64,000 nt of DNA, taken from positions 62,001 through 126,000 of the forward strand of contig CALXQJ010000002.1 in assembly GCA_944390575.1 (NCBI GenBank), read 5' to 3'. This document shows, in pieces, positions 8,782 through 17,476 of the stretch (positions are counted from its first letter, which is position 1; each line of letters opens with the position of its first letter). This DNA comes from an uncultured Spirochaetota bacterium (lineage in GTDB: Bacteria > Spirochaetota > Brachyspiria > Brachyspirales > Brachyspiraceae). A program made the position numbers and the translations under genes. The notes beneath the pieces were generated by a model, which was not told the DNA's origin, searched no databases, and saw only the letters and a list, made by a program, of their open reading frames with translations.

Positions 8782-9573
8782 GTGAAGTGTGAATTTTGTG
8801 GTAGTGAAAAATCTGAAAATTATATTAAAGCTGATTTAGTTAGTTATAATAAATGCTTAGATTGTGGACTAATTTTTCAACATCCTATTATTAGTCAAGA
8901 AGAAATAGATGCTATTTATGATGAAAATTATTTTGAATATGAAGTAACTAATCAAGATAATTTTTTTGATTTGATGAAATTAGCACTTAAAGATATTAAA
9001 TTTGATAGTATCAGAGATAATTTTCCAAATAAAAATGTTCTTGATATAGGTTGTGCTACTGGTAAAATGCTTGGATATTTAAAAAGCGAGGGCTATAATG
9101 CTAAGGGTGTGGAAATATGTCACGCTTCAGCAGAGCATGCCCGTAAAACTTTTGATATAGAAGTTTTTGAGAAGCCTCTTATAGATATAGGCTTTGATAA
9201 TGACTATTTTGGATTTATACATTTCTCTCATGTTATAGAGCATGTTCCAAATCCTGCAGATACATTAAAAGAAGTTTATAGAATATTAGCACCTGGTGGT
9301 TATCTTGCTATTACTACGCCTAATGCAGATGGACTTTTTGCTCATAAGTATGGTGCTAATTGGAGAGCTGTTATGCCTCAGCATTTATGGTTATTTTCTA
9401 AAACTACATTATACAATTATATGACTTCTATTGGATTTAATATACTTAGTGATTATTCTTGGGGAAGTATTCCTGTAGAAAAGAAACCTAATAAGTTTGT
9501 GAAGAAATTTTTTGATAGGTATGTAAAGATTTTTAATAAAGGTGATGTAATGTTATTTTTATGTAGAAAATAA
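8782..9573 (+). CDS. class I SAM-dependent methyltransferase with zinc-ribbon N-terminus
   Basis: 263 aa from GTG 8782, chosen because GGGGAGAG lies 8-10 bases upstream and the protein then starts at its zinc ribbon. The ribbon has two Cys pairs, CEFC and CLDC. The Rossmann core has NVLDIGCATGKMLGYLKSEG, then FIHFSHVIEHVPNPADTLKE, a Methyltransf_23-type pattern. Members of this class modify sugars, lipids or small molecules; the substrate cannot be told. An in-frame TTG at 8737 would extend the protein by 15 residues. Confidence 0.82.
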   Translation: MKCEFCGSEKSENYIKADLVSYNKCLDCGLIFQHPIISQEEIDAIYDENYFEYEVTNQDNFFDLMKLALKDIKFDSIRDNFPNKNVLDIGCATGKMLGYLKSEGYNAKGVEICHASAEHARKTFDIEVFEKPLIDIGFDNDYFGFIHFSHVIEHVPNPADTLKEVYRILAPGGYLAITTPNADGLFAHKYGANWRAVMPQHLWLFSKTTLYNYMTSIGFNILSDYSWGSIPVEKKPNKFVKKFFDRYVKIFNKGDVMLFLCRK

Positions 9574-9611
9574 TATTTATTATTTTTTTGTAATATAAAA
9601 AAGGATAAAAT

Positions 9612-11372
9612 ATGAGTACAGCAAGTAATAACAATAATGGCAAAGAAACTTTAATGTCTATGAATCCTGATAATTATGAGTATTCATTTGACAATACTAT
9701 AGATGTTGTTGGTATTTATAAGAAGATAGTTGATGAACTTTCTACTGATCAAGAGTTGTATCAAGAACTTCTTAAATGTTATGTTACTAATGGAGAACAG
9801 GTATTAAAGTCTATTTCCAAGAGAGATGGTATTAAGGCTGGAAAGAATGTTAAGTTTGATAAGATGACAGGTATTTATAGAAGCAGTGCTTTTGGATTTG
9901 TTGTTTATGATGGTATGAAGAGAGTTTCTGTTATTCCTGTTATTAATGTTGCCGATAAGTGGCGTGGTGTTATGGTGCTTCCTCCTCAGAAGTCTGCAAA
10001 GAAGCAATTGGATGCTGAACAGATACAGGGTCTAATTTCTGAGATACCTATCAAGCTTATGGTCGATTATGATGCTGTTACTGATTTAGCTAATAAAAAT
10101 ATTAATAATAATGAAGGTGTTGTTTGTATCTTTACTCAAGGACAAAAACCTATAGATGGTAATGTACAAAAAGTTATACTTGATTATGATTTATCTATTG
10201 GTAGTGGTAAAACATCTGATGATGGTAGTATAGATTTTAAAGAAAGAAGCTTTGTACATAATATAGAAGCGGATGTAAAAATAGCACATATTATTCCTGC
10301 TAAAGAGGCAGTTAATGGACTTGATATTTATAATGAAGTATTACCTGCACATTTTGATGAGGATCCTTGTTATAAGATGGGGCAGAATCTAAAAGTAGAT
10401 GCTGATGGTATTACTGTTAGAAGTGCTATTAAGGGTATTTTAATTGATAATCATAAGACTTTATCTGTTTCTAATGTTGTTGAGATTGATAAGGTTGATT
10501 TATCTACTGGTAATATTGATGTTGATGGATCTGTTATTATTAAGGAGAATGTTACACCTGGTTTTTCTATTATGGCTGATGGTGATATTCAAGTTAATGG
10601 TAATATTGAGGATTGTAAGATACATTGTTCTGGTAATTTAATAGTATCTGGTGGTATTATTGGTGGACCTGATTCTGATATTAATGTTAGTGGTAAGATT
10701 TATTCTTCTTTTATTAGAAATGCTAAAGTTTTGTGTAAGGGAGATGTTATTGCTAATCAGATTGTAAACTCTGATATTGCTTGTAATGATAGAGTTATTG
10801 CATTAGATGGAAAGGGTGTTATTATTGGTGGTAGTGTTAAAGCTTTAAATGGTATATGGGCTAAGAGTATTGGTGCTGTATCTGAGTCTAAGACTATGGT
10901 TGTTGTAGGTCGTGATGCTGAGGCTGATAATATTCTAAAAAATATTATCAATGAAATTAAATTTAATAATGATGAAATATCAAAAATTAAAGCGATTATA
11001 GGTACTGAGTATTTTAAAAATCCTAAAGCTTTCTTAGAAAAAATACCTGTAGCTAAAAGAGATACTATTAAAGATATATTAAAAAGAATAACAAATCTTA
11101 TTAAAACAACTAAAGAATTAGAATTAAAAAAAGATGAAATGCTTGCTGAGTTTGATAAGTTGGATGATAGTGTAATATCTGCTACTGAGAATGTTTATCC
11201 TGGAATTACAGTATATATTTCAAATCTAAGAAGATATATAGATAAGCAATTATCAGGAACTATGTTTTATTATTCTAAGGAGACTAAAGATATAAGAGAG
11301 AAAGCTCCTAAATCTTTGCCTCCCGAAGATTATGCTTTTCCTGAAAATATTAATAGTGAAAATAATGAATAA
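9612..11372 (+). CDS. fapA: FapA/DUF342 family protein
   Basis: 586 aa. The central and C-terminal part has the repetitive beta-strand pattern of DUF342 (FapA): IIPAKEAVNGLDIYNEVLP, then a right-handed-helix-like series DVDGSVIIKENVTPGFSI, IQVNGNIEDCKIHCSGNLIV and SGGIIGGPDSDINVSG. A coiled-coil segment (about 450-530, ELELKKDEMLAEFDKLDD) follows. In other bacteria FapA-type proteins affect flagellar assembly or polar localisation, but most have no firm role. A GGATAAA-type ribosome binding site precedes the ATG. It converges on galK. Confidence 0.88.
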   Translation: MSTASNNNNGKETLMSMNPDNYEYSFDNTIDVVGIYKKIVDELSTDQELYQELLKCYVTNGEQVLKSISKRDGIKAGKNVKFDKMTGIYRSSAFGFVVYDGMKRVSVIPVINVADKWRGVMVLPPQKSAKKQLDAEQIQGLISEIPIKLMVDYDAVTDLANKNINNNEGVVCIFTQGQKPIDGNVQKVILDYDLSIGSGKTSDDGSIDFKERSFVHNIEADVKIAHIIPAKEAVNGLDIYNEVLPAHFDEDPCYKMGQNLKVDADGITVRSAIKGILIDNHKTLSVSNVVEIDKVDLSTGNIDVDGSVIIKENVTPGFSIMADGDIQVNGNIEDCKIHCSGNLIVSGGIIGGPDSDINVSGKIYSSFIRNAKVLCKGDVIANQIVNSDIACNDRVIALDGKGVIIGGSVKALNGIWAKSIGAVSESKTMVVVGRDAEADNILKNIINEIKFNNDEISKIKAIIGTEYFKNPKAFLEKIPVAKRDTIKDILKRITNLIKTTKELELKKDEMLAEFDKLDDSVISATENVYPGITVYISNLRRYIDKQLSGTMFYYSKETKDIREKAPKSLPPEDYAFPENINSENNE

Positions 11373-14723: not shown

Positions 14724-17340
14724 TTATTTATTTTTTATATAATCATATAAAAATGTTATAAAAATTATTAATGAAAAAATAGTTATAGGTATTACAGGGT
14801 ATATATATCTATATAGCGGTAAAGGTGTAAAAAATCCAACAATTATTGCTGTTGATACAGCTGAGAAGGATGTTGAAAATGATAATATTAATATTTTATT
14901 TTTATATTCTTTTTTTATAATAATTATTGCTAATGTAGTAATAAATATTATCATAGATGTAATAATAAATATTATAATATTAATTTCTGGTAAATATTTA
15001 TATAGAAAAATATATATTCTTTCTTTAGAATTATTAAATGTTATACCATTATTATCATACTTATATGCCATTCCAAATATATCTGATTTTTCTTGTATCT
15101 TATTTTTATCTAAAATAGGAGTCTTTAATGTAAATATTTTTGTAATATAGTTATAAATATGTTTAATATAGCTTATAGGATGTTTTATTATGCTTTTTAT
15201 CCAAAGTAGTTTTAGATTTTTTATTTCATATAATTTTATTATAATTCCATTGCTACCTTTGTATAGATCAGCATTTATAGGATCTGAGTAATAAACTTCC
15301 TTTAAATTATCAAATGTTTTACCTTCATAATAATAATTTTTATTTATTAAATTTGTGTCATTAGCTATTGTTGATATACCTGCTATTTGTAACATAAATA
15401 AATGATAAGAAGGTCTAGATTCTACATTTGCAGATAATAAATATTTACTATTTTTTATCCATAAATATGGTGTAAACTTATATAAAAAAATAAGCGATAT
15501 GGCAAATATTAACATTATTAGTACAAAACTAACTATATATTTTAAATTGAATATTTTATACTTATTATTTAATATTAAGTATGTAAAGAAAATAAATATA
15601 GGATATATACTCACTATCATAGTATGTCGCCACAAAAGTGATATAGTAATTAATATAGAAATAAAAAAGTATATAATAAATAATATTATTTTATTTTTAA
15701 TTTTAAATGTATTTAAAAATAAAATAATAGATAATACAAGCCAAAATATTAAAATAGCTGTAACATCCTTGTTATGAGTTGTATTCATAAAAAATATATT
15801 TGCTAAAAAACTTATTAAAAGTAATAATAGTATTTTTTTAGACTTATATTTTTTATGCAATGATATATTTATAAGAAATAGCCCTGTATACCAACTTAGT
15901 ATATTGATAAAAAAAACATAAAAAGATTTATATCCAAATAAATTATTTAATACTGAAAGAGTAAATTGTATTATAACAGGAAAGTTATTTACATAATTTT
16001 TTTCTATAGATTTAAACATTACATATTGGTCATCCCAGTAAACAAAATATCCTGGATAAAGTAACCAAAAATGAAAGCTAAATAATAGTATATAAATTAT
16101 TATGTATATTAATAGTATATTATCATTAATAAATTTAGAGTATATAATATATATTTTATTATTTTTTATTTTTAATTCATATATATTATATAATATTTTT
16201 ATTATTATAACTAGTATTATTACTATAATCAAGTTTTTTATGATATTATTATTTAGTTCTAATGTATATTTAATATTATCTATATATTTTTTGTTTATTA
16301 TTTCACTTGTAATAATATTTCCATAGTAATATCCATTATATATATTAAATTTTTGTATAACTTCATTAGTCTTAAATATAGGTTTATATAAAAAGTGACT
16401 TCCATAAATATTGAAATTATATAAGTATTTATCTATATGATTATTTGTTAATATAAAATTACTAATAATTTCTTTTTTTATATTTTCATCATTTATTAAT
16501 ATTAATTGATTTTCTAATATATATTCTACATTATTAATCCTTAATGTTCCATACATATCTAAATTTACACTGTTGATAGAGCTACTTTTTTCTATATTTC
16601 CAAATTTTATTAAAATTAATATTAGAATAGAGAAAAATATAATTATATTTATATAATATTTTATAAAATTTTTATTAATTATAAATATATTTTTATTTTT
16701 TAGAATAAATATAATTATAAAATATATGAAAATAATAATGATGTATATCTTTATTATTAATATTTTTATCTTTAATTTAAATCTAATATTTTCTATTTTT
16801 TTATTTATTGATTGAGTAGATTCTATAATTCCAAAAGGACTACCATTATTTATTGTTATATTTTTTATGAAGTTATAATCTTGTAATATTTTATTTGTAT
16901 TTGGATATACACCATAAATATCACTATGCTTAAATATTTTACTGTAGTATCCTATTTTAAAGTTGTATATATAATTAGTTATTTCTTCATTCTTTAATAT
17001 ATATTTAGATACATCTTCATTTGATAAGAATTCGTTTGTATAGTTTATTATAGTTTTATTTGTAATTTCATTTTTTTTATTAGTATAAATAATATTAGTG
17101 TAGACTATATTATTTATTTCTAATGTTTCTTCATTATTAAGAGTAAGATTATCTAAATATCCTATTCTTTCTTTTCTTCCTAAAATTGATAATATTATTA
17201 TAGTTAATGTTATAGATATAAATATTATTATGAGTATTTTATATAAAAGTTTTTGTCTTGTCTTGTCTTGTCTTGTCTTGTCTTGTCTTGTCTTGTCTTG
17301 TCTTGTCTTGTCTTGTCTTGTCTTTATTATAAATTTCCAT
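14724..17340 (-). CDS. candidate phase-variable polytopic membrane protein (GT-C-like), out of frame in this copy
   Basis: The open frame ending at 14724 continues upstream of its first internal ATG (16556), without a stop, for ~230 codons into a pentanucleotide tract. The only plausible start is ATG 17340, just before that tract (MEIYNK, then repeated DKTRQ). With 13 CAAGA units the start frame hits TAA after ~33 codons; 14 or 11 units would join the frames into ~873 aa. Predicted order: hydrophilic repeat, TM, domain A, two TMs, domain B (similar to A), then 10 or so TMs. The segment YPGYFVYWDDQYVMFKSI recalls GT-C/DUF6020-type glycosyltransferases; the function is inferred weakly. The uninterrupted 610-aa part is 14724-16556, but its ATG has no ribosome binding site. 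Confidence 0.75.
17253..17324 (-). repeat. pentanucleotide simple-sequence repeat (CAAGA)13
   Basis: Thirteen perfect tandem copies occupy 17256-17320 (CAAGA on the minus strand, TCTTG on plus), with partial units on both sides giving 72 bp of perfect 5-bp periodicity. The tract is far more GC-rich than its surroundings. It lies within the first codons of the minus-strand gene, the classic place for slipped-strand phase variation. Confidence 0.97.
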
Positions 17341-17476
17341 ATTATAAACTATATATTAATTCTTATTAAAATTCAATAATAATTTTAATGTATTGATAAT
17401 TATATATATTGTAATTTTTATTTTTTTTGTTATGCTTAAAAGGTTGCGTTTTATTTTACCTAATAAGGATATTATA

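Follow-up and report, generated by a model that had tools for sequence, protein, structure and literature searches.

Can a short repeat placed directly behind a start codon decide whether a large membrane protein is made? This question is raised by a locus on the minus strand of the stretch of DNA analysed here (the window, 64 kb in length, part of a 2.0-Mb draft genome in 19 contigs from a gut spirochaete of the genus Brachyspira), in which an array of CAAGA units stands between an ATG and a reading frame that is open for hundreds of codons. Frame-based ON/OFF switching by intragenic repeats near the start is well established for Neisseria opa, with its (CTCTT)n tract, and for the tetranucleotides of Haemophilus influenzae lic and lgtC, genes which act on surface glycans. 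We conclude, with a probability of roughly 0.8, that the window locus is a classical contingency gene of this intragenic simple-sequence-repeat type, encoding a GT-C-type glycosyltransferase.

The repeat tract and the reading frames around it

The tract occupies 72 bp (17253–17324, minus strand; period 5, 100% matches), with 16 nt between ATG 17340 and its beginning, and is the sole long array of a short unit in the window. The motif (CAAGA)4 occurs there 10 times, overlaps included, compared with 0 in 100 dinucleotide shuffles. Re-reading the tract gave the same 13 perfect units as the first-pass annotation, which had however omitted a 14th unit decayed to CAAAA (17251–17255); the number was read from a draft assembly, in one genome of the species. 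On the minus strand the tract reads AAGA-(CAAGA)13-CAA and is followed by AAACTTTT; read from ATG 17340, the sequence 3′ of AAGA(CAAGA)13CAA is AAACTTTTATATAAAATACTC.

The ATG at 17338–17340 is the sole canonical start upstream of the main frame. Its own frame translates as MEIYNKDKTRQ...TKTFI* and closes with the codons ACT TTT ATA TAA, the stop (17239–17241) lying 14 nt past the tract; hence the earlier reading of this copy as OFF stands. Past the tract the third frame is shut immediately, and the remaining one, the main frame, is open as far as 14724 (871 codons, ~840 of them after the tract, at 14724–17250) and would form the body of the putative phase-variable polytopic protein. The earliest ATG, GTG or TTG in it is ATG 16556, 696 nt past the tract, which leaves ~232 codons without a start, as had been described. 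An ORF caller would give a 610-aa ORF from this internal ATG (14724–16556), lacking the first 261 residues and without an evident ribosome-binding site. In short, a long perfect repeat near the 5′ end of the ORF, whose 5-nt unit is not divisible by 3, separates a start from its body, and the number of units sets the frame between them.

An in-frame paralogue with the same 5′ cassette

A natural control for the frame logic is found in the same genome. The paralogue at G000:C3:85181–87250 has 18 CAAGA units and its ATG in frame, and encodes 689 aa. Promoter region, ATG, leader codons, CAAGA tract and the first ~140 codons are common to the two genes, forming a cassette that extends from 16831 to 17383 of the window (minus strand); across the 424 nt past the tract the copies are 97% identical, and they diverge abruptly after a GSPFG motif. 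The pair formed by window positions 16831–17383 and L009 positions ~9138–9715, with promoter, tract and first domain in common at 97% identity, has the appearance of a swapped 5′ cassette.

From the ATG to the junction with the main frame there are 90 nt (frame 0) in the window copy versus 110 nt (frame 2, open) in the C3 paralogue, so that one unit more or two units fewer would bring the body of the window gene in frame, in agreement with the 14 or 11 units proposed earlier. Judged from these frames, the window copy is OFF and its sister ON. In the main frame past the tract, the two copies differ by 9 synonymous and 4 nonsynonymous changes (dN/dS 0.10, P = 1e-4), while the two other frames of the same stretch contain 20 and 24 stops. 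The body of the window gene is under coding selection although it is out of frame. Translation in the main frame has thus probably been the rule over much of the history of both copies, an argument against a pseudogene.

Promoter and initiation

A promoter-like element, TTGAAT-17-TATAGT, is located at 17348–17376 (minus strand), its −10 box ending 7 nt before ATG 17340; the hexamers are identical in the C3 copy, and the assignment consists of consensus matches in a very AT-rich region. An alternative element, TTAATA-17-TATAAT (17341–17369, minus strand), abuts the ATG and would place the transcription start within the ORF. No Shine-Dalgarno sequence was found at ATG 17340. The other Brachyspira tract loci fall mostly into two classes, one with a Shine-Dalgarno sequence and 15–39 nt from the −10 box to the ATG, the other with none and a distance of 6–8 nt; in the latter, the promoter is often near-perfect, for example TTGACA-16-TATAAT (L078, L079, L081, L144, L059). 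The window and C3 copies apparently belong to the second class, and initiation at ATG 17340 would be leaderless. Alternatively, translation may start at an ATA in the main frame, with a GGA a few bases upstream, in which case the ON and OFF states would be exchanged between the window and C3 copies.

A membrane protein with a GT-C-like core

Within its own genome, the window protein (P0001) finds ~26 matches, partial or full, and it has matches in 26 of the 26 genomes of the genus. In the alignment, paralogues show ordinary starts (M-K-N-K-K...KIY) where P0001 has the end of the tract. The domain encoded upstream of ATG 16556 is conserved in these paralogues, many of them with an ordinary ATG at that position, and therefore the 610-aa ORF is headless, as the first-pass annotation had supposed; homologues beginning reliably at ATG 16556, which it had named as evidence against switching, are not what the family shows.

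Neither Pfam nor NCBIfam contains a family that matches P0001, nor a credible one for 21 of its relatives, and the Pfam matches of single family members were rejected as chance. Likewise, a profile search of PDB sequences gave chance matches only, no relatives of the window protein were found in PLSDB, and the search for close relatives among genome contigs yielded one distant match in a Brachyspira MAG. Modelled as a whole, P0001 comprises a multi-helix core and, set among its helices, one or two domains rich in beta structure. Domain 1 (residues 58–191; 16767–17168, minus strand), predicted to be beta-rich and located between membrane helices, is conserved in the paralogues; a second, diverged beta-rich domain between membrane helices (residues 250–362; 16254–16592, minus strand) comes from a low-confidence part of the model; the GT-C-like C-terminal core spans residues 399–871 (14727–16145, minus strand). 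When the core was modelled alone, pLDDT was 87.9 and pTM 0.90. Its best PDB matches with Foldseek were ArnT (probability 1.00), ALG9 (0.94), Pmt4 (0.90), an archaeal oligosaccharyltransferase and DPY19, and every match of high probability (from about 0.5 upwards) is a GT-C enzyme, at E-values > 1e-3 and TM-scores of 0.3–0.4 for the core alone.

Two aspartates, Asp436 in the first loop past the first core helix and Asp525 (in HNKD), are invariant in 22 family members; by the topology of the model, the former is the conserved acidic position of the core's first extracytoplasmic loop. The window protein thus resembles ArnT and other GT-C enzymes (PDB 5f15, 9s6s, 9i5k) in its multi-helix membrane core and in the conserved Asp of the first external loop, and differs from them in that identity is ~10%, TM-scores are weak, and its N-terminal membrane helices enclose one or two additional beta-rich domains. 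Overall, the fold comparison supports the GT-C-like polytopic protein proposed from the sequence, and it is likely that the C-terminal core folds like a GT-C enzyme; given that no curated family matches, naming is less precise, and our claim is limited to this wording. The protein would presumably be an active enzyme with a surface glycan as its target. The gene 3′ of the C3 copy encodes a GT2 protein similar to AglJ and to polyprenyl-phosphate hexose transferases; a donor linked to polyprenyl would be consistent with this. The window gene itself has as neighbours a galactokinase gene, a xanthine/uracil-type permease gene and apt; the permease is present in 26/26 genus genomes, and in the flank parts compared no positional orthologue of the repeat gene was found between permease and apt in other species.

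Proposed mechanism and alternative explanations

In the mechanism that we propose, slippage of (CAAGA)n directly after the probably leaderless ATG would shift the reading frame, and each 5-nt step would toggle translation of the ~870-aa membrane glycosyltransferase of GT-C type, two out of three unit numbers being OFF. Whatever the frame, the tract encodes DKTRQ repeats, which form a charged and probably cytoplasmic tail ahead of the first membrane helix, so that a change in tract length should have little effect on the ON protein. The window copy, as sequenced, is OFF, and the paralogue, which shares its 5′ cassette but differs in the catalytic part, is ON; independent switching of several such paralogues would vary the sugars on a lipid- or protein-linked surface glycan. 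The layout of a contingency locus, already recognised in the first-pass annotation, gains support from the in-frame 18-unit paralogue, from the coding selection in the post-tract frame and from the varying tracts of B. hyodysenteriae described below; slippage at the window tract itself we infer. The pair of OFF and ON copies makes the switching prediction directly testable.

Most of the other tracts in the genus sit in leader ORFs 30–130 nt upstream of a normal start, and this, together with the lack of a Shine-Dalgarno sequence at ATG 17340, could mean that the tract is an untranslated or short leader element (for spacing, attenuation or coupling) and that translation of the main frame begins farther downstream, at a codon that is not a canonical start. 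We give this little credence for the window gene: its N-terminal domain is conserved despite the long interval free of canonical starts, neither a hairpin nor a stop/start junction was found past the window tract, and in the C3 copy the corresponding ATG leads in frame into the gene. A pure 5′-UTR or promoter-spacing role of the tract was rejected, because the interval between tract and conserved domain lacks a start codon. Equally, the broken frame of the present assembly and the extreme AT-richness of the gene (16.7% GC over its whole length) might point to a decaying pseudogene that carries the repeat by chance. This is extremely improbable, since no further lesion interrupts the 840 open codons, the main frame has been under purifying selection from the time the copies split, an in-frame paralogue exists and dozens of related loci carry tracts.

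Rather than the mechanism, it is the state of the gene that would be altered if the unit number, and with it the OFF assignment, were a sequencing or assembly artefact and the gene were ON or mixed in the culture or sample. Several such tracts coincide with contig breaks (e.g., G000:C8, C9, C18, G008:C39, G019:C42), an indication that assemblers struggle with them; however, a typical read exceeds the 72 bp of the window tract, and such an artefact appears unlikely. Finally, the tract could act mainly as a recombination hot spot that swaps 5′ cassettes between paralogues, as might be expected of two genes that are 97% identical over promoter, ATG, tract and domain 1 and then abruptly different. 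Yet the breakpoint lies ~425 nt past the tract and not inside it, the frame logic and the mixture of ON and OFF states are better suited to slippage, and on B. hyodysenteriae plasmids tract length changes without exchange of the flanks; we consider a main role in recombination very improbable. An intragenic frame switch driven by slippage remains the preferred reading.

Repeat tracts across the genus Brachyspira

The bacterium that causes swine dysentery is a member of Brachyspira. Among the 26 genomes of the genus analysed, 14 contain (CAAGA)4, and further tracts in the genus are made of AGAAC, AGACC, ACAAGCA, AACA, AATC and other units. Repeats were sampled in 20 stretches per genome; most of the tract loci came from searches for repeats or for members of the protein family, and one pattern, anchored on the first unit, missed tracts that open with a different partial unit. 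In 400 kb of evenly spaced sequence, G010 has 8 long tracts of 4–7-nt units. The window's own genome has none of comparable length in 20 × 20-kb samples (400 kb; the best is AATT × 4.8), and about eleven long tracts are found in loci around the family of the window protein.

At 66 distinct tracts, many of them in homologous loci and hence not independent counts, a stop is soon reached in two of the frames, and the third is open over a median of 91.5 nt, compared with 51.7 nt in shuffles; the observed number of tracts with one long frame was reached in 0 of 300 shuffles. The open frame is the gene itself at the window locus, L009, L092, L093 and L028. It reaches its stop at the following start codon or shortly ahead of it, for example in ATGA overlaps, at L014, L015, L022, L038, L039 and L071, a layout in which the overlap of the leader ORF with the main start suggests phase-variable translational coupling. 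At L072, L074, L075, L085, L087 and L089 it ends in or near a terminator-like hairpin; L076 and L084 are exceptions to the layout. Hairpins were called by a simple script, and a stricter terminator scan left the L085 hairpin unscored, since the loop exceeds the maximum length set in that scan. At four of these loci (L085:4011–4140; L072:4038–4165; L074, minus strand; L075:3977–4075) the tract in a short leader ORF is followed by the hairpin directly upstream of the next gene, and one of the frames carries the leader into the hairpin or past it. Of 43 scorable loci, 12 have their leader in the long frame (28%; binomial versus 1/3, p = 0.52), a mixture that would be expected of unbiased switching and equally of no relation at all, the homology among loci applying here too.

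Direct evidence of instability comes from nine B. hyodysenteriae plasmids, whose rfb/radical-SAM/amidoligase clusters carry AGACC, AACAG and ACAGA tracts at gene ends (L098–L106). The AACAG tract at an acetyltransferase gene has 7, 13, 11, 7, 12 and 9 units among strains with identical near flanks; other tracts with identical near flanks range from 6.8 to 13 and from 4 to 10 units, and AGACC from 8 to 13. Pentanucleotide tracts of Brachyspira are unstable, as observed at orthologous tracts of these plasmid sister loci rather than at the window tract. Since the 3′-end tracts of glycan and radical-SAM genes vary between 4 and 13 units, the annotated protein ends differ by strain.

Relation to known switches

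Frame switching by intragenic repeats being already known from opa and lic, the window locus joins an established class of contingency genes. It has in common with them a short intragenic repeat near the start with a unit not divisible by 3. It differs in being spirochaetal and probably leaderless, in the charged DKTRQ tail that CAAGA encodes before the first membrane helix, and in specifying a GT-C-like enzyme without a Pfam family. A different use of pentanucleotides has been described in Streptococcus gallolyticus pil1 and pil3, where GCAGA repeats in a leader peptide set the end of the leader relative to a terminator hairpin, which is reached in one frame (PMC3894217). The leader-ORF tracts with hairpins at L072, L074, L075, L085, L087 and L089 resemble this arrangement. 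On the other hand, the window tract is fused to its gene, with no leader or attenuator, and no pil1-type terminator hairpin was found between tract and gene; moreover, the Brachyspira layout recurs at many loci, also at the 3′ ends of upstream operon genes.

In the open-access literature searched we found no report of repeat-based phase variation in Brachyspira, and open-access papers dealing with both Brachyspira and phase variation do not mention repeats. Repeat switches are apparently widespread in the genus and undescribed so far. With some reserve, we lean towards the view that Brachyspira has a large and so far undescribed phasome built on repeats of 4, 5 and 7 nt. A single design (a strong promoter, an ATG and a tract with one open frame of three) would have three read-outs, namely direct gene fusion as in the window, stop/start coupling to the next gene and ribosomes running into a terminator hairpin, and the phasome would act largely on glycan genes. 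In that case, the surface sugars of a population would form a combinatorial mixture. Random switching of many glycan genes would help to explain variable surface antigens, and would also be a warning that gene callers miss or truncate such genes.

Some further observations concern the repeats themselves. Draft contigs end in or beside tracts at G000:C8, C9 and C18, G008:C39, G013:C395, and G019:C8 and C42, so that such genes are under-represented in assemblies. Homopolymers seem to be avoided in the genomes sampled: in 800 kb (L133–L172) of these very AT-rich genomes there is 1 run of 10 or more, although the 4–7-nt repeats are long. The longest tract met is a 44-copy TTGAT/AATCA array in G010 (L138:10695–10915).
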